From positions 124,001 through 188,000 of the forward strand of contig QEUP01000010.1 in the NCBI GenBank assembly GCA_003577145.1: a stretch of DNA of 64,000 nucleotides. The letters run 5' to 3'. This stretch comes from Acidobacteriota bacterium. GTDB lineage: Bacteria > Actinomycetota > Acidimicrobiia > Acidimicrobiales > Microtrichaceae. Below the pieces are notes generated by a model. That model had not been told where the DNA came from. It made no database searches and saw only the letters and a program-made list of their open reading frames with translations. Below, in pieces: positions 35,916-55,450 of this stretch; position 1 is the stretch's first letter, and every line of letters begins with the position of its first letter. Made by a program: the position numbers and the translations under genes.

Positions 35916-36107
35916 CAAGTACCTCGGCCCCACACGAAGCGATGCTGAAGGTGATTGGCGGCGGACCGCCGGGGGATGCAGGCATCGGAACCCCTCCTGT
36001 TGCGTGATTCCGGGGATATCTGCGTAGAGTGTAACAGGCGGTAGTTGCGCAGCAACGCGATCTGCCCCAGAATCCGTAACACGCAGACCGAAGGACACGG
36101 AGGCACG

Positions 36108-37319: not shown

Positions 37320-37941
37320 CAGCGTCACCGACACCGTCGTCCTTCTGTACTTCCTTCTGGTAGGAGAAGCCGAACTTCTCGTCGAGCTCCTGGACGGCGT
37401 CATCCAGGTGCCACGAGCCGTGTACGACCCCGAGGACCGTGCCCTCCCGAAGGAGGCACTCCGCCACTCGGACCTGCTCTCGGAGATGCGCCAATCAGCG
37501 CGCCACTACGAAGTCACGGCTCGAACTGGCGATGCACCCGACCTACATCTGGATCGTGTACTAGCCGTCGACACGCTCTACGACACGGGTCTCGTACGAG
37601 TCGTGGACATGACGCCCGAAGAGCTCGCCGAGGCCGCCGGTCTCCAAAGCCGCTCCGTCACCAAATATCACCCGATACGGGCGCCACTAGGCGCGGGCGA
37701 AGCGGCCTGTGTCGCCATCGCCTCGAGACGCGGTTGGTCAATCGTCACCGACGACGACGCTGCGTTGGCAGTGATGCGGAGCATCTACGGCACGGACGAG
37801 TTCGAGTACGAGCGCATCAGGAAGCTGCTGATGCGCGCCGGTCAGGAGAGGCTGATCACCAAGAGGCGGGCCAACGACATCCACGCTGAGATGCGCGGGC
37901 TGGGCTTCTGGGACAAGGGAACGCCGTTTCCGGATACCTGA
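37297..37941 (+). CDS. PIN-like nuclease domain protein coupled to XRE-ImmA
   Basis: 214 residues. The PIN pattern is TDTVVLLYFL (Asp12), LGAGEAACVAIA (Glu135) and GWSIVTDDDAALAVM (Asp152-154), giving the acidic cluster of metal-dependent RNases. The C-terminal helical tail is longer than in VapC toxins. GTG 37297 overlaps the preceding gene by 23 bp. The pair looks like a toxin (PIN) controlled by an ImmA-bearing regulator. RNase activity is inferred from the residues only. Confidence 0.75.
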   Translation: MVSSPEHDSVTDTVVLLYFLLVGEAELLVELLDGVIQVPRAVYDPEDRALPKEALRHSDLLSEMRQSARHYEVTARTGDAPDLHLDRVLAVDTLYDTGLVRVVDMTPEELAEAAGLQSRSVTKYHPIRAPLGAGEAACVAIASRRGWSIVTDDDAALAVMRSIYGTDEFEYERIRKLLMRAGQERLITKRRANDIHAEMRGLGFWDKGTPFPDT

Positions 37942-38192: not shown

Positions 38193-39425
38193 ATGCAGGT
38201 GATGGTCCAGCGGTGCGCGTTCTTGGACGTGCACCGTGACACGGTGGTGGCGTGCGCTCGCATGCCTGATGACGGCGGCGGTCGCCGCGAGGAGGTCGCC
38301 GAGTTCGGCACGACCGTCTCGCAGCTTCTGGCGCTCTCGGACTGGCTGTGCGAGCGCGGCGTGACCTTGGTGGGGATGGAAGCGACCGGTGTGCACTGGA
38401 AGCCGGTGCACTGGGTGCTGGAGGACGCCGTGCCCGAGTTGTGGGTGATCAGCGCACGCCACATGCGCAACGTGCCGGGCCGAAAGACCGACGTCGCCGA
38501 TGCCCATTGGGGAGCCCAGCTGCTAGAGCACGGGCTGGTGCGCCCGAGCTTCATCCCGCCACGGGCAACCCGTGAGCAGCGGGACCTGACCCGCTAGCGC
38601 AAGTCGGTGATCGAAGAGCGCGGCCGGGAGGTGCAACGGCTCCACAAGGTCCTCGAGGATGCCGGAGTGAAGCTGTCGTCGGTGGCGTCGCACGTTCTCA
38701 CCAAGTCCGGTCGGGCGATCCTCGACGCGCTCATCGCGGGTCAACGCGATCCCGAGGTGCTCGCCGATCTGGCCAAGGGCCGGCTGCGCAAGAAGATCCC
38801 CGAGCTCGAGGACGCCCTGGCGGGGCGGTTCAACGAGCACCACGCGCTGATGTGTGGGGCGATGTTGGCCCGCATCGACCACGCGGACGCCACGATCGCT
38901 CAGCTCACCGAACGGATCGAGGCGCTCCAGGACCCTCATCGAGCGGCGGTGACGTTGTTGGTGACGATCCCTGGCGTTTCTGAACGGACCGCCCAGGTGA
39001 TCCTCGCTGAGATCGGCACCGACATGTCCCGCTTCCCCACCGCCGGGCACCTCGCGTCGTGGGCTGGCATGTGCCCCGGCAACAACGAGCCCGCCGGCAA
39101 GCACGGCTCGGGCGCGACCCGTCACGGCTCGAAGTGGCTACGCATCGCGCTCGTCGAAGCCGCCCAGGCCGCCGGGCGCACCAAGAACACCTACTTGTCC
39201 GCGCACTACGCGCGGATCCGCACCAGGCGCGGACCGCGCCGGGCAGCCGTCGCGGTCGGCGACACCATCCTCGTCATCTGCTGGCACCTGCTGACCACCG
39301 GCGAGATCTACACCGATCTCGGCGCTGACTACTTCCCTCGTCGCACAGCTCGAGGCCATGGGCAACGAAGTCACCCTCGAACCCGCTGCGTGACACTCAC
39401 GGGTCATTCACACCTCAGAAGCTGA
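38193..39425 (+). mobile_element. IS110-family transposase, interrupted by a TAG codon
   Basis: The N-terminal DEDD part has FLDVHRDTVVACARM, LVGMEATGVHW and RKTDVADAHWGAQLL. The C-terminal part has LVTIPGVSERTAQVILAEIG and the serine region HGSGATRHGSKWLRIAL. An in-frame TAG at 38595-38597 splits LTR and RKSVIEERGREVQRL, where relatives have Tyr, so the enzyme is truncated to 134 residues with the remainder untranslated unless read through. No other damage was noticed. It lies between two toxin-antitoxin-like modules. Confidence 0.88.
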
Positions 39426-39504: not shown

Positions 39505-40128
39505 GTGGACTTCGTGCGGCCGATCGAGGCCATCGTGCCCGGTGCCCAAGGGCGGGTTCTTGCCGTCCTGGCCGAGACCACTGCCGAGCTGAACCTGCGG
39601 ACCATCGCCCAGCTCGCCGGCATCAGCCAGGCCCAGGCGTCCCGCTTGCTGCCCGACCTGGTCGGTCTCGGCGTCGTCGAGCGGCGGGAGGTGCCGCCGG
39701 CGTCGTTGTTCCGGCTCGTGCCCGAGCACGTCGCCTCCCGGGCGCTTCTCACCCTCGCCCGCTCGACCGACACCGTGCTCGACGAGTTGGGTCGACTTGC
39801 CGGCGCGCTCCCCCACCCACCCGTGAGCGTGATCGTCTTCGGATCGTTCGCCCGACGCGAAGCCGTGGCCGACAGCGACATCGACGTCGTCGTCGTCCGA
39901 CCCGCTCAGGTCGACGAGGACGACAACGCATGGTCCGCCTCGCTCGAAGCCTGGCGCCGCGACGTTCGCCGACTCACCGGCAACCCGGTCGAGGTCCTCG
40001 AGGTGAGCGCGGACGAGGCGGCCACGGGGCTCGCCGGCCGCACCCAGGTGTGGACCGACATCCGACGGGACGGCCGTGTCGTGAATGGGCTCGGCCTCGA
40101 TGAACTCCGGGCGGTGCGCAGTGCCTAA
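39505..40128 (+). CDS. HTH-fused minimal nucleotidyltransferase (MNT), antitoxin-like
   Basis: 207 residues, GTG start. Residues about 25-70 form a winged HTH (LNLRTIAQLAGISQAQASRLLPDLVGLGVVERREV). The nucleotidyltransferase core has VIVFGSFARREAVADSDIDVVVV, the GS-x10-DxD catalytic motif. In MNT-HEPN systems this enzyme modifies and neutralises the HEPN toxin. The added HTH could make it its own repressor. The HEPN gene overlaps its stop by 8 bp. Confidence 0.88.
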   Translation: MDFVRPIEAIVPGAQGRVLAVLAETTAELNLRTIAQLAGISQAQASRLLPDLVGLGVVERREVPPASLFRLVPEHVASRALLTLARSTDTVLDELGRLAGALPHPPVSVIVFGSFARREAVADSDIDVVVVRPAQVDEDDNAWSASLEAWRRDVRRLTGNPVEVLEVSADEAATGLAGRTQVWTDIRRDGRVVNGLGLDELRAVRSA

Positions 40129-40528
40129 GCCCGGTCGCATCAGGACGGTGTCGGCCGCACAGGTCCGCGCCTATGCGGCCAAGGCGGAGGAGTTCGCCGA
40201 TGCCGCGGCCAGCGACCTCGAGGCCGGCCGCAACATCGCCGCCACGAGCCTCGCCATCCACGCCGGCATCAACTCAGCCGACACCGTCTGCGGGGCACGG
40301 CTCGGCAAGCGAGCCGCCGGCGAGGATCACGACGAGGTGCTGGCCCTTCTCCGCCAAGCGGGCCCCGACGGTGCCGAGGTCGAGGGCGACCTGCGGCGGC
40401 TCCTACCGCTCAAGACGAAGGCCGAGTACGAGCCCGACGACATCGCCCCCTCCGTCGCAGCCAAGGCGGTCGAGCGGGCGCTACGGTGCGCCACCGTGGC
40501 CCGGCGAGTGGCAGACACGGCGAGGTGA
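40121..40528 (+). CDS. HEPN-domain protein, toxin of MNT-HEPN pair
   Basis: 135 residues, all-helical, with the HEPN pattern AEEFADAAASDLEAGRNIAATSLAIHAGINSADTVC. An Rx5H motif (RAAGEDH) lies near residue 68, compatible with the RNase site of HEPN toxins. GTG 40121 overlaps the MNT gene. It ends 20 bp before the convergent end of the restriction operon. Confidence 0.82.
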   Translation: MPKPGRIRTVSAAQVRAYAAKAEEFADAAASDLEAGRNIAATSLAIHAGINSADTVCGARLGKRAAGEDHDEVLALLRQAGPDGAEVEGDLRRLLPLKTKAEYEPDDIAPSVAAKAVERALRCATVARRVADTAR

Positions 40529-40548
40529 GGTCTGCCGACGCTACGGTG

Positions 40549-41484
40549 CTAGGTGTCCTCGGCCTCCTCGAACAGAACGACACCCTCGACGCCTTCAAGC
40601 TCCTCGGCCACGCTCTCCCACGCGCCTCCCTCGAGGAGGGCAGCGAGGTACCAAGGCGGCTGGCTGAGTAGTCCCCGCAGCACGTGCTCGAAGTAGGGCT
40701 CGGCGAAGTGACCACGATCGGTTGGGACCTGCCTGAACACCTGGCGAGGAGCGTCGATCTCGACCACAGTCGATGGCGCCGCTCTGAGCTGACCCATGCG
40801 CATCTGGGACAGCTGGGCGAGGAGGCCCAGAGCTACGACCCGAGGCAAGGCCGTTGAGCCTCCGCTCAGAAAGCTGCGGAGGTCGGGATCGTCAATGCTG
40901 GACGCCACGGGTCGAAGGAGGCGCGGCCTCCGTCCCACGCAGGCGAGGCATTCAAGCGGGCGCGCATGCTGAGCAGCGACGTCCTCAGTACCGCCAACCA
41001 GTGGCTGCGCGAGCAGGCCTGGAACCACCGCGACGCCGAGCCTGGTCCTCCAGCTCTCGTACGGGGCGATACAGCATGGGTTGCCCAGCGTGACCCCCGG
41101 TTCGATACGCGGATGGTTGTACAGGACGTAGGCGGCTGGAACTCCCAAGCGCCTGGCGTGCGCGAGCAGGAGGTCGATCTGCCGGTCGCCGGCGCCCGTT
41201 CGATAGCCGAAGTCGTACCACGGCAATCCGTGCCCTGGCTTGTTCCGCTTCGCTTGGACGAGGACTCCGAACCACTCGTTCCCGCTGCTCCACCACCACA
41301 GCCAGTCAGCGCCGGTTCGAGCCTCCTCCCGCTGGCTGAACGTCCAGACGCGCGCCGCAGGAGCAGCCCGCGTGAGAACGATCTCTGTAAGCGCCTGCTC
41401 ATGAGCGTCGAAGCCAGCACGGCTCGCTGCGGCAGCGTGTCGCACGGCCGCTCGACGTGCCGTTCGCAGTTGGTCGGCGATCAT
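40549..41484 (-). CDS. DUF6615-like protein, PD-(D/E)XK nuclease candidate; last gene of hsd operon
   Basis: 311 residues from ATG 41484 (GTG 41511 also possible). Residues 34-79 hold an E...D...QxK arrangement: Glu34 in ALTEIVLTR, Asp60 in RTGADWLWWW, and QAK at 77-79 in WFGVLVQAKRNKPG. That is the order of a PD-(D/E)XK nuclease core, and the GADWLWWW string matches DUF6615 proteins as remembered. The rest resembles no known domain. It follows DUF3024 by 97 bp on the same strand. Nuclease activity is an inference. Confidence 0.65.
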   Translation of the reverse strand: MIADQLRTARRAAVRHAAAASRAGFDAHEQALTEIVLTRAAPAARVWTFSQREEARTGADWLWWWSSGNEWFGVLVQAKRNKPGHGLPWYDFGYRTGAGDRQIDLLLAHARRLGVPAAYVLYNHPRIEPGVTLGNPCCIAPYESWRTRLGVAVVPGLLAQPLVGGTEDVAAQHARPLECLACVGRRPRLLRPVASSIDDPDLRSFLSGGSTALPRVVALGLLAQLSQMRMGQLRAAPSTVVEIDAPRQVFRQVPTDRGHFAEPYFEHVLRGLLSQPPWYLAALLEGGAWESVAEELEGVEGVVLFEEAEDT

Positions 41485-41581
41485 GGGAACCAAGCTCGAT
41501 TCGTCTGGCACCACTGCGGCGAATGTCGCCACAGGCGGTCCGTGGCCCGGGAAGGAAGTTCGCTGCGGAGGTGGCCGTCCA

Positions 41582-41926
41582 TCAGCCCCAGAAGATGCAG
41601 ATCGGGTCGGCGTCGATCTCAGCGAGCAGCCGTTCGATCGTCGGCGTGGGTTCAAGGTCCTCGTAGCGGTGGAACTTGCTGTGGCGGTCCGGCCAGTAGA
41701 GCGTCCAGGCGCCGGTCGACTTCGTGTGCTGCATCCTTGCGATCTCCTGGCGCGTCCACTCCGGCCCGAAGTCCTCACGCCACGGGGGCCGGCACTCGAG
41801 GATCGTGATCGCCCGAGGACCGACGTCCATTTCGAAGCGCATCTCGTCGATGTGCGCACCGATCCGCTCGTTCTGCTCCGCCACCCAGCGGCGAACACGA
41901 AGCACATCGGTCTCAGGAAGCGCCAT
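41582..41926 (-). CDS. DUF3024 family protein
   Basis: 114 residues from ATG 41926: LRVRRWVAEQNERIGAHIDEMRFEMDVGPRAITILECRPPW, IARMQHTKSTGAWTLYWPDRHSKFHRYEDL. This is the compact DUF3024 fold with unknown function. It overlaps the end of the winged-helix gene by 14 bp, which places it in the restriction operon. DUF3024 proteins are small single-domain proteins; association with defence genes is seen here but not explained. Confidence 0.82.
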   Translation of the reverse strand: MALPETDVLRVRRWVAEQNERIGAHIDEMRFEMDVGPRAITILECRPPWREDFGPEWTRQEIARMQHTKSTGAWTLYWPDRHSKFHRYEDLEPTPTIERLLAEIDADPICIFWG

Positions 41927-42908
41927 TGCCGCCGTCCTGAAGCTGCATGAACCCCATGATCGCGTTGTCGATGACCTTCGCTGGCCCGGTCGCCATGAAG
42001 CCACGCCGGCCCACGGCGGCCGCGATCTCGGCGGAGCAACGTCGGCCGACCTCGCAGAGAAGCGGGAACCACTCCATGAAGGCTCGCTCCTCGCCCCCGT
42101 AGACAGCCTTCTGGCCGGTGAAGAATCGGAACGTGTACTGGCGGTCGATCGGGGGGACGAGGTCGGGCAGCACGTGATGGAGTGCCTTCGATCCGGCGAC
42201 GATCCGGGTCCCCGAGGTGCTCACCTGCAGCCGAGCGATCACCTTCCATACAACCTCCGCCACCTCGGCAGCGTCCGACTCGCCAACCTCGGTGATCCGC
42301 CTCGACCACAGGTCCTCGAGTTCGGGCGCAAGTGTCCGGAACGAGCGGATGAAGGCGCTGAACTCGCCCACCTTGGCCGCCTGCGGCCCCATCCGGTGCA
42401 TGCCCCACGCCGGCAGCACCGCGTACACGTACTCGAAGAACAGCTCGTCAGCCAGCAGCGACTCCACGTCGTGGTGCTGTCTCCGCCGCTCCAGGGCTCG
42501 CTCATGGAAGTAGAGGCTGGGACCAGGGAAGGCGTTGCTCCGCCCGAACGCATCGACGCATTGCCCGAAGCGGTCCACAAGCTGATTCACGTTCTGTCGG
42601 GCTCGCTGGGACCTGCCGATCCGTGGCGGGCGCGCTGATGAGGCGTCAGACGGAGCGGGAGGCGCACTCCGTTCACCAATGACGTCACGGTCACCCAATG
42701 CTGAGTTGACGTACTTCCGCTCTGATCCCTTGCGCCGGTCGACGAGGCCAGCCGCGGCGAGGTCTCTGCAGAGCCGATTGACGTAGTGACGATTGATGCC
42801 CAGCCTGTCGCCGATGTCATCGTCATCGAGCGCGAGCCCAGTCGCTCGCAAGAGGTCAAGAACCTGGGCCTGACGGTCGAGTCCCTCCTTGCTGGGAAGA
42901 TCGCTCAT
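41913..42908 (-). CDS. winged-helix protein of unknown family in hsd operon
   Basis: 331 residues. The N-terminal 65 residues form a winged HTH (AQVLDLLRATGLALDDDDIGDRLGINRHYVNRLCRDLAAAGLVDRRKG). After a Pro/Ser/Arg-rich linker (75-100), the C-terminal 230 residues are helical, with GTRIVAGSKALHHVLPDLVPPIDRQYTFRFFTG as their most distinctive part. Not assigned to a known domain. Its ATG shares one base with the stop of the nuclease-like gene before it (TGATG), so translation is coupled. Regulator or DNA-recognition subunit are both possible. Confidence 0.6.
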   Translation of the reverse strand: MSDLPSKEGLDRQAQVLDLLRATGLALDDDDIGDRLGINRHYVNRLCRDLAAAGLVDRRKGSERKYVNSALGDRDVIGERSAPPAPSDASSARPPRIGRSQRARQNVNQLVDRFGQCVDAFGRSNAFPGPSLYFHERALERRRQHHDVESLLADELFFEYVYAVLPAWGMHRMGPQAAKVGEFSAFIRSFRTLAPELEDLWSRRITEVGESDAAEVAEVVWKVIARLQVSTSGTRIVAGSKALHHVLPDLVPPIDRQYTFRFFTGQKAVYGGEERAFMEWFPLLCEVGRRCSAEIAAAVGRRGFMATGPAKVIDNAIMGFMQLQDGGNGAS

Positions 42909-43378
42909 CAGCGCAGCCGATCGACTCGGGGGTCGTCGACGAGGGGAGGCTTCACGTGGATGCGATGGCCGTTCAGCGTCGGAACCCATCGGCCGAAGTC
43001 TGCGACGACCTGGTAGGGGATCTTCCACATCTCGAGCAGCACCAGGTCCTCGCTGAAGATGGCGGCGATCAGGTAGTCGAACTCGGCCTGATCGAGCTTC
43101 CGAACGACTCCGAGCTGTCGGCTCTTGTTCTGCGGCGTGAGGCGACGCGCCTTGATCTGGTATCGACATCCCGCGGCGTCCGTGGCGTCATATCCCTGTG
43201 CCACCGGCGGTGCGAGTTCAAGCTGAAGCTCCTCGGCAACGAGGCGCTCCGCGTAATCGGCGACCGGGTTGTTCCACGATCGGATGAGGTCTCGACCGCG
43301 CAGCTCTCGCATCGACCGAGCCCAGACCTGCCCCACCTGCTCATCAGTCAGATCAGCAAAGAACTCGTCCCACGCCAT
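42908..43378 (-). CDS. DUF6998-like, Mrr-type PD-(D/E)XK nuclease candidate in hsd operon
   Basis: 156 residues. A possible catalytic core is Glu44/Glu50 in DYAERLVAEELQ, Asp67 in QGYDATDAAGCRY, and QIK at 74-76, followed by FDYLIAAIFSEDLVLLEMWKIPY, the strand-helix end of restriction-type folds. It starts 7 bp after the hsdM stop. Proteins like this (DUF6998 as remembered) are found near restriction genes. Nuclease activity is an inference from the motif. Confidence 0.65.
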   Translation of the reverse strand: MAWDEFFADLTDEQVGQVWARSMRELRGRDLIRSWNNPVADYAERLVAEELQLELAPPVAQGYDATDAAGCRYQIKARRLTPQNKSRQLGVVRKLDQAEFDYLIAAIFSEDLVLLEMWKIPYQVVADFGRWVPTLNGHRIHVKPPLVDDPRVDRLR

Positions 43379-43385
43379 GTCGCCG

Positions 43386-44864
43386 TTAGTCCTCGAGGTC
43401 GACGCCGATGCCCTGGAGCGACTCGGATAGTTCGGTGAACTCGGCGAGGGCGGCTTCGAGATCCTCGACGATCTCAGCGGCGATCACACCGGGCGGCGGG
43501 AGGTTGTCGGTGTCCTCGAGGCTCTCGTCGCGCAGCCAGAAGATGTCGAGGCTGGCCTTGTCCCTCGCCACTAGCTCGTCGTAGGTGAAGCGGTGGAACC
43601 GCTCGCTCTCCTCGCGCTTGGCACGCTGGCCGGGCTTGTAGCACCCGACGAAGTCGTCGAGGTCGGCTCGGCGCAGCGGGTTGGTCTTGAGGGTGAAGTG
43701 CTGGTTGGTCCGCAGGTCGTAGATCCACAGCTCCCTGGTCCACGGGGTGTCCGAGCCGGGCTTGCGGTCGAAGAACAACACGTTGGCCTTCACGCCCTGC
43801 GCGTAGAAGATCCCGGTCGGCAGGCGCAGCAGCGTGTGGACGTCGCACTCATGAAGCAGCCGGCGCCTGATCGTCTCCCCGGCCCCGCCCTCGAAGAGCA
43901 CGTTGTCGGGCACGACCACGGCCGCTGTGCCGCCGATCGTGAGCAGGGTCTTGACGTGCTGCACGAAGTTGAGCTGCTTGTTCGACGTCGACGCCCAGAA
44001 GTCATCACGCACGACCGTCAAGCTCTGGCGCTCGGCCTTTCCCTCGCCGTTGAGGATCGTGACCGACGACTTCTTCCCGAATGGGGGGTTGGTGAGCACC
44101 ATGTCGAACCGCTCGCCCGGGTCTGCCCGCAGCGCGTCGTCGACATGAACCGGGCTGTCGGACTCGGGTGACTCGATGCCGTGCAGGAGCAGGTTCATGG
44201 CGCACAGGCGGGCCGTGTTGTCGACGATCTCCCAGCCGGTGAACAGTCCCGACCGCAAGTGGCGCTTCTGGTCGGGGTCCAGGTTCGGGTGCTCGTGGAC
44301 GATGTGATCGAATGCTGCGAGGAAGAATCCGCCCGTGCCGCAGGCCGGATCGCAGATCCGCATGTCTGGCCCGGGCTGCATCACATCGACCATCGCTGAG
44401 ATCAACGCTCGTGGCGTGAAGTACTGACCCGCACCTGACTTCGTGTCGGCGGCGTTCTTCTCCAGCAGGCCCTCGTAGGCGTCGCCCTTGACGTCAGCAT
44501 CGAGGGTCATCCACTGCTCGTCGCCGATCAGGTCCTTGATGAGTCGCTCGAGCTTGGCCGGGTCCTGGATCCGGTTCTGCGCCTTGCGAAACACGACCCC
44601 CAACATGTCCTCGCCCTTGCCCAGCTCGTTGAGGATCGCGATGTAGTGGGCTTCGAGGGCCTCGCCCTTCTTGTCGAGCAGCGACGGCCAGTCGGAGCCC
44701 TCGGGCACGATCCGATCGAGGCCGAGCTGGTGCTGCTCGTCGGCCATCTTCAGGAACAGCAGGTAGGTGAGCTGCTCCAGGTAGTCGCCGTACGACAAAC
44801 CGTCATCCCGAAGGATGTTGCAGTAGTTCCACAGCTTGTCGACGATGACCTTGGTGTCGCTCAC
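43386..44864 (-). CDS. hsdM: type I restriction-modification DNA methyltransferase subunit M
   Basis: 492 residues. An N-terminal helical HsdM domain (IVDKLWNYCNILRDDGLSYGDYLEQLTYLLFLKM) is followed by the N6-adenine methyltransferase domain with motif I DPACGTGGFFLAA (172-184) and motif IV NPPF (259-262). It methylates adenine in the recognition sequence using S-adenosylmethionine, bound to HsdS. Start overlaps the hsdS stop by 4 bp. Length and motifs look intact. Confidence 0.95.
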   Translation of the reverse strand: MSDTKVIVDKLWNYCNILRDDGLSYGDYLEQLTYLLFLKMADEQHQLGLDRIVPEGSDWPSLLDKKGEALEAHYIAILNELGKGEDMLGVVFRKAQNRIQDPAKLERLIKDLIGDEQWMTLDADVKGDAYEGLLEKNAADTKSGAGQYFTPRALISAMVDVMQPGPDMRICDPACGTGGFFLAAFDHIVHEHPNLDPDQKRHLRSGLFTGWEIVDNTARLCAMNLLLHGIESPESDSPVHVDDALRADPGERFDMVLTNPPFGKKSSVTILNGEGKAERQSLTVVRDDFWASTSNKQLNFVQHVKTLLTIGGTAAVVVPDNVLFEGGAGETIRRRLLHECDVHTLLRLPTGIFYAQGVKANVLFFDRKPGSDTPWTRELWIYDLRTNQHFTLKTNPLRRADLDDFVGCYKPGQRAKREESERFHRFTYDELVARDKASLDIFWLRDESLEDTDNLPPPGVIAAEIVEDLEAALAEFTELSESLQGIGVDLED

Positions 44865-46174
44865 GATGCCCTCGCCTTTCTGGTGCGCTTGGTCTGGGCG
44901 GTCGCCCGAGCGTCGTTCTCACGCCGGATGCGATCGAGCAGCACCGACGCAAGCTCGTCATTCGGGTCTTGAGGAACGAGCTGTCCGCAAAAGGCAGCAG
45001 CAAGAACGGAACGATGAAGTGCACGTGTACGCCGGAGCACGAACTCGAGCGAGTCGGTCAACCTCTCACAGGCTTCTTCGATTCGCTCGATGTCGCCGAG
45101 GAGCTCATCTTGATCTTGCTCTGGCACCTGCGGCACTCGGTATCGCTTGATGTCCCGAAGATTGATGTGAGGGTGTGCAGAACCGGTCGCCGCTCGATGG
45201 GCTTGCGACCGGCCTTCAGCAGAGTTGAGAAAGGCGGCCAGAAGTTCAGCCCTCACCGTCGCCGGGCGCATCAGGACCATTCCTTGCGACAGGCAGAGGC
45301 TCAAGCCGTCCGGGACAACCGCAGCCCAGCCATAGCTCAGCTCCCGGCTATAGACGACATCCCCAGCCCGGGGTTTGTCGCGTGCGATTTGCTGCGAGTA
45401 TTCGGCTTCATTCACTCGGGCAGTATGAGCCGTTTCCAGCCGCCCCCCCACCACGTCGCGGGGTCGCAAAGCGAGATGCGCACCATCGGGCGAATAGCCC
45501 GGTGTTCGATGTGGACAGTCGCTTAACCGCTCCAGAGTGTCCACGAGATCGATGCGCTGCCAGCCTTCACGAAAACGACTACCGACTGCGCGTTCTCGGA
45601 GAGGCTCAACGCGGACACGAGCTGCTTCGGCGCTTGCCTCAGCGGCGTAGAGGATGGACACGTGCTCCTCGATGGCGGCGGCGATCCGCTCCTGCTCCCC
45701 CAGTGGGGGCAGTGGACACCGGAATGAGGCGAGGCCCTGCTTGCCCAGGTGCCGAATGTTGACGCCACGCCCGGCCTCACCAAACTGTCCGCCTAGCGCA
45801 CTCGCACGGCAGTACCAGTACAGGTAGGCGGTCGACACTCCCTGTGGTCTCACGCGAAGGAGCGTGTTCTGAAAGCAGCAGCCTTCAATCTCCCCACCCC
45901 AGATTGCTGGCTTCCCTACCTCGTTGGGGCTACCCGATGCTTCGTTGAGCAGTAGGTCGCCTGGCTTTAGCTCGAACCGCTCTGCCTCGTCAGGTTCGAA
46001 GTTCATCTCCTTCACGTCAGCCAGATCGATTCCATCCCAGGTCACGTTGGCGGAACGGAGATACGGACGCATATGGCTGCCGCTGTGGTTCTTCGGGGAG
46101 CGCTGTCGACCAAGCTGCACCGATGCAACCTCGCCGATCGTTGTCCACTCCCAGCCGGGCGGCAGGTCCCTCAT
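44861..46174 (-). CDS. hsdS: type I restriction-modification specificity subunit S
   Basis: 437 residues with two target-recognition domains, each followed by a conserved helix: first TRD from MRDLPPGWEWTTIGEVASVQLG to CPLPPLGEQERIAAAIEEHV, second from about 215 to VPEQDQDELLGDIERIEEACERL. It determines the bipartite target and bridges the HsdM and HsdR subunits. ATG 46174 overlaps the hsdR stop (ATGA). The second TRD is less typical but the gene is full length. The recognition sequence cannot be predicted by eye. Confidence 0.9.
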   Translation of the reverse strand: MRDLPPGWEWTTIGEVASVQLGRQRSPKNHSGSHMRPYLRSANVTWDGIDLADVKEMNFEPDEAERFELKPGDLLLNEASGSPNEVGKPAIWGGEIEGCCFQNTLLRVRPQGVSTAYLYWYCRASALGGQFGEAGRGVNIRHLGKQGLASFRCPLPPLGEQERIAAAIEEHVSILYAAEASAEAARVRVEPLRERAVGSRFREGWQRIDLVDTLERLSDCPHRTPGYSPDGAHLALRPRDVVGGRLETAHTARVNEAEYSQQIARDKPRAGDVVYSRELSYGWAAVVPDGLSLCLSQGMVLMRPATVRAELLAAFLNSAEGRSQAHRAATGSAHPHINLRDIKRYRVPQVPEQDQDELLGDIERIEEACERLTDSLEFVLRRTRALHRSVLAAAFCGQLVPQDPNDELASVLLDRIRRENDARATAQTKRTRKARAS

Positions 46175-49014
46175 GCGGCGACAGCCTCGGTGAGCTCGGT
46201 GAGCAGCGCGTCGAGCTCCCGGCCGAAGAGCTCGCGGGCGCGGCCGAGGCCGCCGCGCTGACTGAACGGCGGGTCGAGCAGCTCTTGCGGTTCGATCGAC
46301 AGCGAGGCCGCGAGGTGGTCGCGGATGAGGCGGAGCCAGTCGAATTGTTCGTCGGTGAAGGTGCGGCCAGCGTTCTTCTGCTGGAGGAGCCAGGTGTCGA
46401 ACCGTTCGGTGACCTGTTCGGGGTAGGGCGCCAGCTCGTCGTCCTCGCCGAGGGTGAACCGCACGAGGGAGACGATGTTGGTGAGCACAGTGCCGGCCGA
46501 GCCGCGGACCTTGGAGACGTCGAGGGTCTCGTAGGCCTCCCATAGGCGTTCGGGGGTCCAGCGGTGCGGTGGCTTCCCGATGGCTTCGGCGAGCTCCTTC
46601 ACGTCGCGGTATGTGAGGCGCTTGGCGTAGGGGCGGCTGTAGAGCACTTGGAGGGCGGTGATCTCGTCCTTGTGCTCGTCGAGGAACGCCTTGAACGACT
46701 CGACGGTCTCAGCGGCGCGGGCTCGGGCGTCGACGGCGAACTCCGCGCGGGTGACCCGGTCGATGCTGACCTCGTCGATCACCTGGTCAAAGCTGCGCTG
46801 CACGTTGACGAGTGCGTCACGCAGCTCGGCGTTGGCCGCCAGGGGCTTCACCGCCTCGTCGAACGTTGCCTTCCGGGTCTGCTCGATCTCGGCGTCGCTT
46901 GGCTCGCTCTTACCCGACGCGATCTGGGCGGCGGTGAGCTGACGGTCGGGGTCGATCGCTTCGATGAGCGCGTGCTCGATCGACTTGAGCGACTGCCCGG
47001 CGAGGGCCTCGAGCTTCTCCCGATCAGCGGGGGTGATGCGGCTGTCGATGCGAGCCAGGCGAGATGCGAGAGTGGAGACGAGGTCGTCGCTGACCTGACC
47101 GAGGGCCGCCTGGTGCAGGAGCTTCTCCAGTGACACGCCCCGCTTGCGTTCGAGCGGGGTGGTCTCGATGAGCTTGGTCTCGGTGACCCCGACGGCGTCG
47201 ACGAGCACGAAGCGGTCCTTGTGGGTGGCGTCGGGGGTGACGACCTTCAGGTCGCTGTCGGGGATGGTGCGCACGCCGCGGCCCTTCATCTGCTCGAAGA
47301 AGTTCCGGGACCGTACCATCCGCATGAACACCACCATCTCGATGGGCTTCACGTCGGTGCCCGTGGCGATCATGTCGACGGTCACCGCGATGCGGGGGTA
47401 GTAGCTGGTGCGGAAGTCCTGCAGGAGCTGCTCGGGCTTGGTGCCGTCGGAAGCCTTGTAGGTGATCTTTGCGATCACGTCGTTGCCCTTGCCGAACTCC
47501 TCGCGGGCGATACGCACGATGTCTTCGGCGTGGCTGTCGTCCTTGGCGAAGATCAGCGTCTTGGGGATGTGGCGGAGCTGGCCGTGCTCGTCGACCTCGC
47601 GGTCGGGGAACATCGCCGGGAGGTTGTCGCGGATGGCCCGGATGACGGTGCGGATCTGGTCCTTGGCGACGACCTTCTTATCGAGGGCCTTCTCGTCGTA
47701 GGTGAGGTCCTCGTCGACCTGTTCGAGGCGCTCGTCGCGCGTCTCGCGGTCGCGGAACGTCGTCCAATAGCCGGCCTCGATGGTGGATCCGCCCTCGCTG
47801 ATCGCGGTGGAGAGGCGGAACACGTCGAAGTCGACGTTCACCCCATCGGCGACGGCGTCGGGGAATCCGTACTCCATGACCAGGTTCTTGTTGAAGAACC
47901 CGAACGTCTGCTTTCCCGGTGTTGCGGTGAGCCCGATGAGGAAGGCGTCGAAGTATTCGAGCACCTGGCGCCACACCCCGTAGATCGAGCGATGGCACTC
48001 GTCGACGATGATCACGTCGAACGCCTCGATCGGCAGCGCCGGCTGGTAGTCGACCTCCACCGGCCGGTCGGGGGCCACGGTCTCGCCCGTCTGCTCGTCC
48101 AGCTCCTCGGGGAGATCGGCATCGCCGCGCAGCATCGAATAGACGCGCTGGATGGTGCCAATGCAGACGCTCGCCACCGAGTCAATCTTGTTGTGCGTCA
48201 GGTGCTGGACGTTGTAGAGCTCGGTGAACTTGCGGCCTGAACCCGGCACCTCGAATCCCTGAAACTCTTTGAGGGTCTGCTTGCCCAGGTTGCCCCGGTC
48301 GACCAGGAACAGGATGCGCTTGGCCTGGGCGTGGCGGATCAGCCGCTCGCAGATGTTCGCCGCCGCGAACGTCTTGCCGGCGCCGGTGGCCATCTGGATG
48401 AGCGCACGGGAGTGGTTGTCCTTCAGCGACCTCTCAAGGTTGGTGATCGCCTCGAACTGCGCATCCCGCAGCCGGGCAGGGTCGTGCCCAAGGACCGGCA
48501 CGGCCGGGATGCGGGCCCGAAGCGTGCCGCCGCCGTGGTTGACGTGGTCCTCGACCTGCCACTCGAGGGTCTCGGGCCGGTGGAACCAGAACACCCGCCG
48601 GGCTGTCGGCTCGGGGTCCATGTGGCAGGTGAACCAGGTCTCGTCGCCCGTCGACTCATACGCGTAGGGCACGCAGCACACGATGGACCCGTCGTCGCGC
48701 TGGCGGTCGACGAGGTAGGCGGGCAGCTCGTCGGGCACGTTCGTCTGGTACTTGACCGTCTGCCACTCGACGCCCGAGAGGGTGGTGCCCTTCTTCTTGG
48801 CCTCGATCACCCCCACCGCCTGACGGTTCACGAACAGCACGTAATCGGCCGGGCCAGCACTGGTGACCAGCTCCCGGACGGCGACACCGGTGCCGGCGTA
48901 GAGGTTCACCGCCTTGTAGTCCTGCACCACCCACCCGGCCGCCTCCAACATCGCGTCGATGCGGAGGCGGGCACGCTGCTCAGGCAGCAGGCGGCCGGAG
49001 TCGTCAGAGGTCAT
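46171..49014 (-). CDS. hsdR: type I restriction endonuclease subunit R
   Basis: 947 residues. The N-terminal nuclease domain has Asp57 (ADYVLFVNRQ) and the ExK of GVIEAKKKG (71-73). The motor has Walker A QMATGAGKTFAA (near 210), DEAD-type VIIVDECHRSIYG, FIATPG-like GLTATPGKQTFGFF and motif VI MKGRGVRTI. The C-terminal helical region (EEAD-type) binds the methylase. It cuts unmodified DNA after translocation. First of seven consecutive minus-strand genes. Confidence 0.95.
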   Translation of the reverse strand: MTSDDSGRLLPEQRARLRIDAMLEAAGWVVQDYKAVNLYAGTGVAVRELVTSAGPADYVLFVNRQAVGVIEAKKKGTTLSGVEWQTVKYQTNVPDELPAYLVDRQRDDGSIVCCVPYAYESTGDETWFTCHMDPEPTARRVFWFHRPETLEWQVEDHVNHGGGTLRARIPAVPVLGHDPARLRDAQFEAITNLERSLKDNHSRALIQMATGAGKTFAAANICERLIRHAQAKRILFLVDRGNLGKQTLKEFQGFEVPGSGRKFTELYNVQHLTHNKIDSVASVCIGTIQRVYSMLRGDADLPEELDEQTGETVAPDRPVEVDYQPALPIEAFDVIIVDECHRSIYGVWRQVLEYFDAFLIGLTATPGKQTFGFFNKNLVMEYGFPDAVADGVNVDFDVFRLSTAISEGGSTIEAGYWTTFRDRETRDERLEQVDEDLTYDEKALDKKVVAKDQIRTVIRAIRDNLPAMFPDREVDEHGQLRHIPKTLIFAKDDSHAEDIVRIAREEFGKGNDVIAKITYKASDGTKPEQLLQDFRTSYYPRIAVTVDMIATGTDVKPIEMVVFMRMVRSRNFFEQMKGRGVRTIPDSDLKVVTPDATHKDRFVLVDAVGVTETKLIETTPLERKRGVSLEKLLHQAALGQVSDDLVSTLASRLARIDSRITPADREKLEALAGQSLKSIEHALIEAIDPDRQLTAAQIASGKSEPSDAEIEQTRKATFDEAVKPLAANAELRDALVNVQRSFDQVIDEVSIDRVTRAEFAVDARARAAETVESFKAFLDEHKDEITALQVLYSRPYAKRLTYRDVKELAEAIGKPPHRWTPERLWEAYETLDVSKVRGSAGTVLTNIVSLVRFTLGEDDELAPYPEQVTERFDTWLLQQKNAGRTFTDEQFDWLRLIRDHLAASLSIEPQELLDPPFSQRGGLGRARELFGRELDALLTELTEAVAA

Positions 49015-49078
49015 GCCAGCAAAGAGGGTACGGCACTCAGGTAGAGGCGTCCCGTGACGAGGGGAAACCGAGGCGTGG

Positions 49079-49795
49079 TCAGGCCCGCTCCACGATCTCG
49101 ATCATCTCGGCTGCCTTCACGCAGGCCGGATGCGGTTCGGCCCGCTGGGTACGGCCTCCAGCAGGCCCATCCATGCACGGTTGGCCGGAGCGGTACTCCC
49201 GGCACATTCGGTTGCGCCACACGGTGGTGTCGGGGGCCTTCCAGCCGCCCTTGTGGTCCAGCATCTCGACCGCGTTTACGATCAGCACGTGGTCGTGCGG
49301 GCACGGGTCCCCCGCCCGCGAGGTGGCGTGGCGGGTGTGGGCGAAGATCAGTCCCGAGGTCGCCGACGGTACGGCGGCCTTGCCGCGTCGGCCGCCCATC
49401 TCCCGGGTGACCGCGTCGAGGTAGGCGAGGGTGCCGTCGCGCTCGGCGTCCATGATCCGGTGCATGTCCCCGGCCCGGCCGATCACCCCCAGCTCGGCGA
49501 CCGACTTGTGGGCCGACACGACCAGCTCCATGCCCGGGCGTCGTGTCTTGACCAGCCGTGTCCCGGTGATCGGGTCACGGGCTCCACCGACGCCGAACAG
49601 GTCGTCGTAGTGGTCGGCGCCAAGCACGCCGTCGAGGCCGAGCCGGGCAGCGCCGGCACCGCCCCACCGAAGCGGTGACTCGCCCCGCTGCGCGTAGTAC
49701 GCCAGCGCCTGGCCCGAGTGGTCATCGCCTCGATCGACGACCGTCTCGCGGTGGTAATCGACCGAGTTCGCTCCCATCATCCGCATCCACGCCAT
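49079..49795 (-). pseudogene. MobF (TrwC-like) relaxase, C-terminally truncated
   Basis: 238 residues against the usual 800 or more. The TrwC relaxase N-terminus is clear: ALAYYAQRGESPLRWGGAGA, LGLDGVLGADHYDDLFG, LVVSAHKSVAELGVIG, and the histidine triad FAHTRHATSRAGDPCPHDHVLIVN. Similarity ends near residue 195 (APDTTVWR), after which the tail is unlike the family. The helicase half is missing. It indicates a former conjugative or mobilizable element next to the restriction operon. Confidence 0.8.
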
Positions 49796-49869
49796 CAGCG
49801 ACCGCCTGCGTTCGTGGGCTGCGCGGCCGGGACCGGGACCAACCCGGGAGGGGTTGCAATCGTGTTCAT
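49795..49869 (-). CDS. 24-residue leader peptide before the relaxase remnant
   Basis: ATG 49869 with AAGGAA upstream encodes MNTIATPPGLVPVPAAQPTN and four more residues; its TGA overlaps the relaxase ATG as TGATG. The coupled junction suggests translation control of the downstream gene. No conserved motif is recognised. Confidence 0.45.
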   Translation of the reverse strand: MNTIATPPGLVPVPAAQPTNAGGR

Positions 49870-49946
49870 TCGTTGTTCCTTGCTGCTGGTCTGCGACGGG
49901 TAAGTACCTAGGAGTTGGTCATGGCCTTGCCATGGAGACGTCGGGG

Positions 49947-50429
49947 TCATGGCATGTCGGGTTCCGTGTCGAGGAGTGAGAGCTGCGCGGTGGTTTTGGG
50001 GCGTCGCGTTCGGCGAGCGGGTGGATCGGTCTTGGGTCGTGCGGTGACAGAGGGCGCGGGCTGATCGGTCGGTGGCGAGGCAGCCGTGTCCGAAGGCGTC
50101 GGTCGTGGATCTGCTGGTTGGCCCGTAGCCATCCCGATGGCGGCGAAGTCGACGAGGTATGTCGAGCCACCGAACTGACCGGAAGTGTCCTCGCGCTCGT
50201 CGATCCGCTGCACCAGTCCATCGGCGATGAGTCGACGGAGGGCAGCAGCGACAGTGTCCTTCGAGAGGCGGAGGTCGCTGCCGAGCTGGCGCACGGTGGT
50301 CGTCGACCGGACGGTGGAGCCGGAGCGCTCGCCGATCGCTGCGAGCTCCTCGAGGACGACCCAAGCCACAGGACCGACCGCGGCACGCACCGGTCGGCAC
50401 ACCTCGGTGAGCGCGATCTCAGGCGGCAT
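49947..50429 (-). CDS. winged-helix DNA-binding protein of a mobile element
   Basis: 160 residues. The first 100 form a winged HTH with LEELAAIGERSGSTVRSTTTVRQLGSDLRLSKDTVAAALRRLIADGLVQRIDE, the rest a Pro/Thr/Arg-rich disordered tail ending AQLSLLDTEPDMP. It overlaps the excisionase gene by 11 bp and precedes the relaxase remnant, as expected for an actinobacterial integrative element. It could be a transfer regulator. Confidence 0.65.
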   Translation of the reverse strand: MPPEIALTEVCRPVRAAVGPVAWVVLEELAAIGERSGSTVRSTTTVRQLGSDLRLSKDTVAAALRRLIADGLVQRIDEREDTSGQFGGSTYLVDFAAIGMATGQPADPRPTPSDTAASPPTDQPAPSVTARPKTDPPARRTRRPKTTAQLSLLDTEPDMP

Positions 50430-50655
50430 CGTGCGCGTTCCCGTCGACAGGCCGTCGCCGGGTCGGATCGAGGAGCCGCAGGATTACGGCCTTGGGCACC
50501 CGGACCGACCGGCCGAAGCGCACCGATGGGATGCCGGCAGCACCGCCGGTCCTCTCCCAGCGGCGGATCTCGGCGTAGGCGCTGGTCCGGCCGATGCGCA
50601 ACACAGCGGCGGTCTCCTCAACCGTCAGAAAGTCGGGCAGGTCCGCGATCCTCAT
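50419..50655 (-). CDS. excisionase-like helix-turn-helix protein
   Basis: 78 residues from ATG 50655: LPDFLTVEETAAVLRIGRTSAYAEIRRWERTG, then GIPSVRFGRSVRVPKAVILRLL. This is the MerR-like HTH_17 fold of excisionases and recombination directionality factors. Its position opposite the XRE and integrase genes suits an xis function; a transcription role is also possible. Confidence 0.78.
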   Translation of the reverse strand: MRIADLPDFLTVEETAAVLRIGRTSAYAEIRRWERTGGAAGIPSVRFGRSVRVPKAVILRLLDPTRRRPVDGNAHDAA

Positions 50656-50717
50656 CGCACCCTCCGTCTGGCTCGGTCGCCAGGTCCGGGGCCTCATGCT
50701 GAGGCCAGATAACTCAA

Positions 50718-50745
50718 CGGCTAGACAGACTACACGGTTAGACTG
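50718..50745. promoter_or_regulatory. paired direct repeats in the xis/XRE divergent promoter
   Basis: CGGCTAGACAG (50718-50728) and CGGTTAGACTG (50735-50745) match at 9 of 11 positions, with starts 17 bp apart, upstream of both divergent genes. They are candidate sites for the XRE regulator. Confidence 0.55.
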
Positions 50746-50792
50746 CCTGAAGCCTGAATCATCTGTCCAGAGGTTGACCTATGCTGCTGTCC

Positions 50793-51461
50793 ATGGCCAG
50801 GCGCAAGCAGACCCGACCCTCCTACACCGTGAACCAGGTGATCGCGTCGAACGTGGCCAAGGCCCGCCTGCTGCGCGGCTGGACGCAACAGGAAGCCGCC
50901 GAGGCCCTCGCCCCCTACCTCGGCACGAAGATGTCACCGGCGAGCTTCTCGGCCATCGAGCGCTCCGTCGATGGGGGCCGCGTTCGCGAGTTCGATGCCG
51001 ACGAAGTGTTCGCCTTCGCCCGCGGGTTCGGCCTCCCCATCGGCTGGTTCTTCACCCCACCCTCCCCGAACGACAACATCGGCCTCGCCACGCCCGACGC
51101 CCCCGCCGACGGCCTCGACCCCCACGTCCTGCTCGACGCGCTGCTGGGAACCAACGAGACCGTCGACGCGTGGCGCCAGCTCCTCCTCAGCTGGCCGCTG
51201 ATGACCCATCGGATGCGGCTGCACGACGACGGCAGCGCGGATTACCTTGGCCGCGACGAGGACGACGTCCACCCCCGCCTCGACATCCTCCGACAGCTGC
51301 AAGCTGGCATGTCGGTCCGCGACGCCCTCGGCGACATCGCCGAGGCCCGACACGTCCTGCTCCAACTTGCCGACCTCCTCGCCGAGCTCGGCGACCACGC
51401 CACCGACGACTCGACCTCGACGACACCCGCACGCTCGAAGTCGAAGGCACCCAAGAAGTGA
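50793..51461 (+). CDS. XRE family regulator of the integrative element
   Basis: 222 residues. Cro/C1-type HTH: VIASNVAKARLLRGWTQQEAAEALAPYLGTKMSPASFSAIERSVDGGRVREFDADEVFAFARGFGLPIGWFFTP, a form common in actinobacterial mobile elements. The C-terminal part is helical and acidic, ending with a Ser/Lys-rich tail. It precedes the integrase gene by 70 bp in the same direction, so it may be the element's master switch. ATG 50781 is an alternative start. Confidence 0.82.
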   Translation: MARRKQTRPSYTVNQVIASNVAKARLLRGWTQQEAAEALAPYLGTKMSPASFSAIERSVDGGRVREFDADEVFAFARGFGLPIGWFFTPPSPNDNIGLATPDAPADGLDPHVLLDALLGTNETVDAWRQLLLSWPLMTHRMRLHDDGSADYLGRDEDDVHPRLDILRQLQAGMSVRDALGDIAEARHVLLQLADLLAELGDHATDDSTSTTPARSKSKAPKK

Positions 51462-51531
51462 CCCAGGCGGGCTCGGCGACGCGAACAGCAACGCCCTCCA
51501 ACGCACACTGCCATCCCATCGGAGGGACAGC

Positions 51532-52704
51532 ATGAAGGGCCACACCCGCCGCCGAGGTAAGACCTGGGCGTTCGTCATCGACATCGGAACAGATCCCGCC
51601 ACCGGCAGGCGCCGACAGAAGTGGGTCTCGGGCTTCGAGCGCGAGCGCGACGCCGCCAAGGCCATGCGCGACTACATCGCCCGCATCGAACGAGGCGAGG
51701 TCGTCGCCGAAGCGAACGAAACCGTCGCCTCGTACCTCCGTGACCAGTGGCTGCCGTCGCGCCGGTCCAAGGTCAAGGAGTCGACCTGGGCCGGTTACCA
51801 GGACGCCGTCGAAGGACGGATCATCCCCGCCATCGGCGCCCTCCCCCTCCGCAAGGTCACGCCCAAGCACATCGCCAAGCTCTACGACGACCTGCTCATC
51901 GCGGGCAGCCGGGACACACGGCGCGGGCGCGGCCTGGCACCCAAGACCGTCCGCAACACTGGCCTCGTGCTCAAGAAGGCCCTCGGCGACGCCGTACGAC
52001 TCGGCCTGCTCGCCCGGAACCCCACCGAGCACGTGGAGATGCCCCGGGTCGAGCGCAAGGAGATGAAGACCTGGACCACCGCGCAAGCCCGCCAGTTCAT
52101 CGGCTTCATCCGTGGCGACCGACTGGAGGCGCTGTGGATCCTGATGCTCACCAGCGGCATGCGTCGCGGCGAGCTCATCGGCCTCAAGTGGGCCGACGTC
52201 GACCTCGACGCCGGCCGGCTCGCGGTGCGCCGGGCTCGTGTCGCCGTCGGGTACAAGGTCGTCTGGTCCTCACCGAAGACCATGAAGTCCGCCCGAGTCA
52301 TAGCTCTCGACGTTGCGACCTGTGACGTGCTGCAGGCTCACCGGGCAGGACAGGGCGACGAGATGGCGCTCGTCGGCGACGCCTACCACGACGAGGATCT
52401 CGTGTTCGCCAAGCCCGACGGATCGCCGCTGCACCCCGACTACGTGTCCCAGCGGTTCGGCCGGCTCGTGAAGAAGGCAGGGCTGCCCATCATCCGCCTC
52501 CACGACACCCGCCACACCGCCGCCACCCTCTTGCTCGAAGCCGGCATCCCGGTCAAGGTCGTTAGCGAGCGCTTCGGGCACAGCACAACCTCGATCACCG
52601 CCGACCTCTACCAGCACGTCGCCCCGCACATGCAGGAGGAAGCCGCCAACAAGCTCGGCGCCATGCTCCTCGGCGAACCCGAGCCGGAAGCTGAGGACTC
52701 GTGA
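51532..52704 (+). CDS. tyrosine site-specific integrase
   Basis: 390 residues. The N-terminal arm- and core-binding parts (AMRDYIARIERGE, YLRDQWLPSRRSKVKESTWAGYQDAVEGRIIPAIGALPLRKVTPKHI) are followed by the catalytic domain with Arg in SGMRRGELIGLKW, HDTRH (His and Arg), the second His in GHSTTSI, and the nucleophilic Tyr in DLYQHV. All key residues are intact. ATG 51532 follows GGAGGGACAGC. It is 2.7 kb from the tRNA-fMet gene, a possible integration target. Confidence 0.93.
   Translation: MKGHTRRRGKTWAFVIDIGTDPATGRRRQKWVSGFERERDAAKAMRDYIARIERGEVVAEANETVASYLRDQWLPSRRSKVKESTWAGYQDAVEGRIIPAIGALPLRKVTPKHIAKLYDDLLIAGSRDTRRGRGLAPKTVRNTGLVLKKALGDAVRLGLLARNPTEHVEMPRVERKEMKTWTTAQARQFIGFIRGDRLEALWILMLTSGMRRGELIGLKWADVDLDAGRLAVRRARVAVGYKVVWSSPKTMKSARVIALDVATCDVLQAHRAGQGDEMALVGDAYHDEDLVFAKPDGSPLHPDYVSQRFGRLVKKAGLPIIRLHDTRHTAATLLLEAGIPVKVVSERFGHSTTSITADLYQHVAPHMQEEAANKLGAMLLGEPEPEAEDS

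Positions 52705-55373: not shown

Positions 55374-55450
<77 letters not shown>

Follow-up and report, generated by a model that had tools for sequence, protein, structure and literature searches.

Several published type I restriction–modification loci have modification-dependent enzymes or other effectors linked to them or embedded in them. In the immigration control region of Escherichia coli, a chromosomal hotspot of ≈14 kb with variable content, hsdR, hsdM and hsdS are clustered with mrr and mcrBC (PMC2481252, PMC12707154). The Vibrio cholerae island VPI-2 carries a five-gene type I operon with the embedded GmrSD-like system TgvAB, for which complementary action was suggested, and GmrSD homologues (RloF) are found in other type I loci (PMC11411939). 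In EcoprrI, inhibition of the type I enzyme sets off the tRNA anticodon nuclease PrrC (PMC12707154), and the RRDM island of enteropathogenic E. coli has DarTG2 within a type I locus that includes the repressor RptR (PMC12255303). Here, we analyzed a 64,000-nucleotide stretch of a genome assigned to the Acidimicrobiales (contig QEUP01000010.1, positions 124,001–188,000; hereafter the window), in which a minus-strand run of seven genes joins what looks like a complete type I set to four further genes, the first of them encoding a homologue of the BisI family of modification-dependent endonucleases. With moderate confidence, we read this run as a composite restriction operon, in which a type I chassis carries exchangeable cargo with other triggers behind hsdM.

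This locus shares with the immigration control region the grouping of hsd genes with modification-dependent genes, with the VPI-2 operon a type I operon carrying a modification-dependent restriction system, with EcoprrI an additional effector gene within a type I locus, and with the RRDM island the use of a type I operon to house other defence genes. By homology, the locus combines a full hsd set with a gene for a modification-dependent nuclease, as in the immigration control region and TgvAB. Unlike the former, which assembles separate systems, the present run is one tightly packed unit with other effector families, and unlike TgvAB, which is located between hsd genes, the BisI-family homologue lies behind hsdM together with three more genes. 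No PrrC homologue was met here, none having been searched for. The RRDM cargo is a toxin–antitoxin system, and RptR, a 79-residue helical repressor, differs from gene 5 of our run in size and domain layout. Because of these precedents, the layout principle is already known, contrary to the earlier note on this DNA, which had described it as unfamiliar. The new part is a variant, a BisI-family homologue with such a retinue. No published case of a BisI-family gene within a type I operon was seen in passages of PMC4926085 and PMC8281217 or, judged by titles and opening lines of abstracts, among the papers listed by a search that left most subscription papers outside its scope; in PMC8281217, one genome has both BisI and a methylase of type I. 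If our reading is correct, the locus would be another type I system paired with a cutter of modified DNA, by way of the BisI family.

Analysis of the open reading frames (ORFs) confirmed all seven genes proposed by the earlier note, running from 49014 to 40549 on the minus strand in the order hsdR, hsdS, hsdM, BisI-like gene, winged-helix gene, DUF3024 gene and DUF6615-like gene (genes 1–7; Table 1). The spacing was −4 bp at both hsdR/hsdS and hsdS/hsdM, +7 bp between hsdM and gene 4, −1 bp between genes 4 and 5, and −14 bp between genes 5 and 6, which bears out the claim that the hsd genes overlap by 4 bp and that five of the six junctions overlap or are shorter than 10 bp. The last junction, between genes 6 and 7, is indeed a 97-bp gap when the ATG at 41484 is taken as the start of gene 7; any of the alternative in-frame GTG starts at 41511, 41514 and 41532 would shrink it. 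HsdR matched the EcoEI_R_C and ResIII profiles, with HSDR_N slightly under the Pfam cut-off (23.2 versus 25.1 bits), HsdM matched N6_Mtase, and HsdS matched Methylase_S as well as many PADLOC specificity profiles. Judged by profile and motif, genes 1–3 look like the complete R-S-M set that had been claimed, and apparently an intact one. The G+C content at third codon positions (GC3) was 0.92 for hsdR and 0.91 for hsdM, 0.66 for hsdS and 0.76–0.85 for genes 4–7, a spread that is consistent with separate origins.

The nature of gene 4 emerged from a sequence search of the PDB, in which it matched Eco15I with an E-value of 5.4e-34 and NhoI with 2.6e-14, and from PADLOC, in which it matched a methyl-directed type II profile at 5.1e-43. 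It had previously been called Mrr-like; that identity was ruled out, as no Mrr profile in Pfam matched at E ≤ 0.1 and the PDB search returned BisI-family enzymes. The published active site consists of E50, WD and QVK in NhoI, with QIK in Eco15I (PMC11347163). In gene 4, the active-site residues E44, D64, Q74 and K76 were present in all nine aligned rows, at positions that match NhoI and Eco15I. Of the motif first proposed, E44 and QIK76 were thereby upheld; D64, and not D67, is the conserved aspartate, and E44, rather than E50, is the helix glutamate that is conserved. Gene 4 thus resembles BisI, NhoI and Eco15I in sequence and predicted active site and is clearly a member of the family, its specificity being less clear than its family. 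The activity expected of a BisI-family enzyme is cleavage confined to 5mC/5hmC DNA at GCNGC. BisI-type enzymes favour densely modified DNA (PMC5487053), and the natural target of the family is called unclear by the authors of PMC11347163. Of 396 sampled Actinomycetota genomes, 10 have a relative of gene 4, counting the host; a viral scan found none. A plasmid search gave 104 matching records, 74 of them from Escherichia; in the one plasmid region inspected, a 292-residue homologue is located beside a helix-turn-helix (HTH) gene and IS1 copies, not beside hsd genes. In another homologue (L166, Table 1), the BisI-like domain is preceded by an N-terminal extension of more than 100 residues.

An HsdM of the host kind was encoded in 21 of the 396 genomes at E ≤ 1e-60, again counting the host. 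From the 20 other genomes, 14 hsd loci were compared over five predicted genes on each side of hsdM, and 10 of these had an hsdR homologue near hsdM. The cargo differs among the loci, including three in which HsdM is 89–90% identical to that of the host (Table 1). The best reading of this comparison is one type I chassis that accepts different, exchangeable cargo, and the three closest loci make this idea testable.

In an AlphaFold2 model of gene 5 built with 59 sequences, the mean predicted local distance difference test (pLDDT) score was 90, and the chain folded into a winged helix, a loose linker that was weakest at residues 75–81, and thirteen helices. The predicted winged helix, which agrees with the earlier description of the protein, had many structural matches; the best row was a Z-alpha domain (Z 11.8, root mean square deviation 2.1, 71 aligned), with many others tied, and searches of the PDB, VIA and BFVD with the whole model returned lists filled by winged-helix matches. 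For the C-terminal domain, no Pfam or NCBIfam model scored above cut-off. Relatives were found at 75 further loci, 71 in a genome scan and four in a viral scan, under record titles that include Actinomycetota, Acidobacteria, Bacteroidetes, Deltaproteobacteria, Nitrospirae and archaea. Within the Actinomycetota the gene is rare, since only seven of the 396 sampled genomes matched, three of them strongly (the host, G178 and G254); a plasmid search gave no match. Many relatives are 219–250 residues long and lack the winged helix, their sequence beginning with the conserved domain (e.g., L018 and L021). The alignment, comprising 59 of 76 sequences, showed P130, F134, Y162, K241, P248 and D255 to be invariant, and 55 or more of the aligned sequences retain H135, W168–G174, H245, R256, K311, D314 and N315. 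Residues H, K, R, D and W are frequent at the conserved positions.

Attempts to connect this domain with known families gave faint signals. A family profile retrieved only two rows from PDB sequences, at E ≈ 0.45. Six of the 59 members matched DUF6308 weakly (best E-value 0.0076), and an hhalign comparison with DUF6308, also weak, gave E 2.4e-4 and a probability of 44 over a region that spans the conserved motif. A possible relationship to HhH-GPD/OGG glycosylases was suggested by a likeness of motifs; hhalign gave no significant match to 31 HhH-GPD sequences or to four and then eight OGG sequences. The alignment between DUF6308 and OGG was insignificant (E 0.46), yet it placed a conserved K and D in register. 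The host itself has a DUF6308 gene, with one in-frame TAG, on its contig C10 (L100, Table 1).

The neighbourhoods of gene 5 relatives were examined at 74 loci (75 minus one taken as a duplicate), with genes predicted by ORF length, so that genes of small size or unusual make-up may have gone undetected. By profile or sequence match, restriction genes were located near the relative in at least eight of the 74 (Table 1), and in three further loci (L039, L072 and L073) the neighbours were restriction-like by motif only. Among 128 operon-like neighbours, ResIII matched nine times, HSDR_N, Methylase_S and N6_N4_Mtase three times each and N6_Mtase twice. A set of 128 genes located at least 5.5 kb away, smaller in total (38,593 versus about 49,600 residues), had one N6_Mtase match, which probably represents hsdM from L055, a member of this set; ResIII was not among the matches listed for these distant genes, where families with one member are partly unlisted and one ResIII is possible. 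Two relatives adjoin acyl-CoA dehydrogenase or similar unrelated genes. What makes the domain of interest is that it is conserved, has no dedicated Pfam model and turns up repeatedly next to restriction genes, in archaea as well as bacteria.

Gene 6 was confirmed as DUF3024, scoring 89.1 bits against a Pfam gathering cut-off of 24.9, and it also matched the PADLOC candidate PDC-S43 (4.6e-17); PDB sequences gave weak chance-level rows only. DUF3024 was present in 12 of 149 sampled genomes, including the two, among the 14 related hsd loci, in which it lies near hsdM: at 110 bp in L199 and at ≈1.2 kb on the opposite strand in L211. Of three plasmid copies, one lies at a distance of 0.3 kb from a methyltransferase gene that is followed by a helicase gene, and two have no annotated restriction gene nearby. 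The DUF6615-like character of gene 7 was sustained in part, with a score of 19.4 bits, under the Pfam cut-off of 23.8, and with several plasmid homologues that carry the DUF6615 annotation. Its E29, D60, Q77, A78 and K79 were present in all eight aligned rows, a pattern suggestive of the PD-(D/E)XK type; D60 and QAK77–79 had been correctly named, and the conserved glutamate is E29 instead of E34. A PDB sequence search with gene 7 gave one weak unrelated row. Five plasmid homologues are located among mixed genes; one of the plasmid homologues (L089) adjoins a uracil-DNA-glycosylase-family gene, with two methyltransferase genes at 2.7 kb. In L171, a DUF6615-like gene overlaps a PglZ gene in a BREX-like locus that also has BrxL. 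Our literature search, with most subscription papers outside its scope, returned no paper for DUF6308, DUF6615 or PDC-S43, and one for DUF3024 that, by its title and the start of its abstract, concerns another subject.

In the composite operon that we favour, the type I enzyme would mark self by adenine methylation, with HsdR cutting unmethylated DNA, and the BisI-family enzyme would cut DNA with 5-methyl or 5-hydroxymethyl cytosines, modifications that would disguise it from the type I enzyme. The two types of enzyme can share one operon because host adenine methylation should not trigger BisI; for Bacillus subtilis T30, the point has been made that type I methylation is on adenine and should not feed BisI (PMC4926085). 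Gene 7 would contribute a probable second PD-(D/E)XK nuclease, gene 5 would bind DNA through its winged helix, with a helical domain that is probably catalytic or base-reading, and gene 6 may be a small accessory protein. If the seven products are made together, are active and cooperate, the operon would seem to have its own second line of defence against viruses with disguised DNA. Two suggestions of the earlier note, that two nuclease-type genes had been added to the type I set and that they might act against modified DNA, draw support from the BisI homology and predicted active site of gene 4 and, for the former, from the conserved residues of gene 7. The composite reading is favoured by the tight packing of the genes, the hsd profiles and motifs, the BisI homology and active-site residues of gene 4, the catalytic pattern of gene 7 and the overlap of its L171 homologue with PglZ, the restriction genes near gene 5 relatives, the differing cargo on related chassis, the GC3 values and the published cases of complementary embedding. 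A number of observations weigh against this reading. Homologues of genes 4, 5 and 7 were found in none of the 14 related hsd loci, the three closest included, and the other genes of the set were found near BisI homologues in none of eight Actinomycetota regions of 3–20 kb, representing eight of the nine non-host Actinomycetota genomes with a gene 4 relative. The exact set was met nowhere else, so conservation does not speak for joint work of genes 4–7; the recurrence beside other hsd loci proposed earlier was found not for the whole block but for gene 5 relatives and, in two of the 14 loci, DUF3024. Most of the 74 gene 5 loci had no recognized restriction gene. In 40400–49400, no sigma-70-like promoter was found, and the four terminator-like sites were within the range of shuffled sequence (mean 2.8, standard deviation 1.7), because of which we infer co-transcription of the seven genes from spacing. 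The host also has at least one C5-methylase gene (one full match, besides a fragment), which would conflict with gene 4 if its sites overlap those of gene 4. Finally, unlike BisI, NhoI and Eco15I, gene 4 has T134-L135 at the place of the (H/R)(V/I/T/M) pair that contacts the inner methyl groups in the family (PMC11347163) and so departs from the published motif, where its register to H139-V140 of NhoI is our own reading of the chain numbering. Because of this departure, its dependence on 5-methylcytosine or its recognition site may differ; a few other homologues in the alignment likewise lack the motif.

A simpler account would be that genes 4–7 are plain defence-island cargo, acquired horizontally and working or decaying singly, with no shared function. 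The absence of the block from the 14 related loci speaks for it, as do the gene 5 loci, whose 808 predicted genes (≥90 residues) included no homologue found for gene 4, 6 or 7, the eight plasmid regions in which DUF3024 and DUF6615-like homologues are mostly apart from hsd, the unequal GC3, and the relaxase fragment, integrase and IS110 transposase close by. It sits less easily with the continuity from gene 3 through gene 6, joined by overlaps or a 7-bp gap, with DUF3024 recurring near hsdM despite its scarcity among the sampled genomes, and with gene 5 relatives that abut hsd genes in other phyla, and we give it a real but minor chance. We consider it very unlikely that the type I complex keeps some or all of genes 4–7 inactive until it is inhibited or bypassed, with the winged-helix protein as the switch. 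The earlier note had suggested that the extra nucleases act upon failure of the complex, but nothing observed here shows them to act only then. PrrC beside EcoprrI is a precedent (PMC12707154), and the tight linkage to hsdM and the DNA-binding domain of gene 5 would suit such an arrangement, but no sequence feature that we saw suggests such control, and gene 5 relatives occur in many loci without a recognized restriction gene. For gene 5 itself, two proposals are both possible but doubtful. One is that it is solely the transcription factor of the operon, its C-terminal domain being a sensor or dimerization unit: many regulators have a similar N-terminal winged helix, and regulators of type I islands exist, such as RptR (PMC12255303), but many relatives lack the winged helix altogether, and the conserved positions, some invariant, have the composition described above. 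The other, equally tentative, is an unrecognized and widespread DNA-acting enzyme domain with invariant Lys241 and Asp255, distantly like DUF6308 and possibly glycosylase-like by a likeness of motifs. In bacteria as well as archaea, such an enzyme would work alongside restriction systems of type I and other kinds, and here it would be teamed with the BisI-type nuclease as a sensor and effector against base-modified DNA. Winged helices of other restriction enzymes read methyladenine (PMC11037411).

Table 1. Genes of the run, flanking features in the window, and loci used for comparison (L-numbers; positions within the locus).
Feature	Position	Strand	Length	Remarks
Gene 1, hsdR	46171–49014	−	947 aa	type I restriction subunit; EAK 71–73, GAGKT 211, DECH 338
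Gene 2, hsdS	44861–46174	−	437 aa	specificity subunit
Gene 3, hsdM	43386–44864	−	492 aa	adenine methylase; GTG start; DPACGTGGF 172, NPPF 259
Gene 4	42908–43378	−	156 aa	BisI-family modification-dependent endonuclease homologue
Gene 5	41913–42908	−	331 aa	winged helix ≈7–71, conserved helical domain ≈98–325
Gene 6	41582–41926	−	114 aa	DUF3024; PADLOC candidate PDC-S43
Gene 7	40549–41484	−	311 aa	from ATG, start uncertain; DUF6615-like
HTH-IrrE peptidase gene and overlapping gene	36045–37941	+		
IS110-type transposase	38193–39425	+		
Winged HTH-nucleotidyltransferase gene	39505–40128	+		PADLOC PDC-M05A
HEPN-like gene	40085–40528	+		sub-threshold match, E 0.023
Relaxase fragment, HTH genes, integrase	49079–52704			
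tRNA-Met	55374–55450			
L199				HsdM 89–90% identical; DUF3024 behind hsdM
L198				HsdM 89–90% identical; AAA ATPase adjoins hsdM
L200				HsdM 89–90% identical; 82-residue ORF behind hsdM; 205-residue protein without Pfam match before hsdR
L203	3679–7136			AbiEi/AbiEii between hsdS and hsdM
L205	8750–10942			GmrSD with RAMA domain, 35 bp behind hsdM
L208	11320–12321			RhuM-Fic between S and M
L018				hsdR, hsdM, hsdS; gene 5 relative overlaps hsdS by 4 bp
L021				archaeal contig; hsdM, hsdS; 9 bp
L055				hsdM and hsdS; gene 79 bp before gene 5 relative has 1023 residues, GSGKS and DEAH, HsdR-like by motif
L037				HsdR three genes from gene 5 relative
L062, L063, L068, L013				helicase or methylase genes near gene 5 relative
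L166	1137–2024			BisI-like gene
L171	883–8333			DUF6615-like gene, PglZ, BrxL
L100 (host contig C10)	2734–3243			host DUF6308 gene

On both sides, the run is bordered by features of other kinds. Directly upstream of hsdR are a TrwC relaxase fragment of 238 residues, HTH genes and a tyrosine integrase gene, which suggests a decayed mobile element. When the window was scanned against Rfam at gathering thresholds, a single tRNA was the only match, and a search over 104 kb of the contig found no 15-bp repeat of the surroundings of the tRNA-Met gene. Immediately beyond the end of the operon and oriented towards it, a nucleotidyltransferase gene overlaps a gene with a HEPN match below threshold; the pair is a candidate MNT-HEPN-like module. 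Farther out, the IS110-type transposase is split into two ORFs, corresponding to its N- and C-terminal parts, and the HTH-IrrE peptidase gene overlaps a 214-residue gene without a Pfam match.

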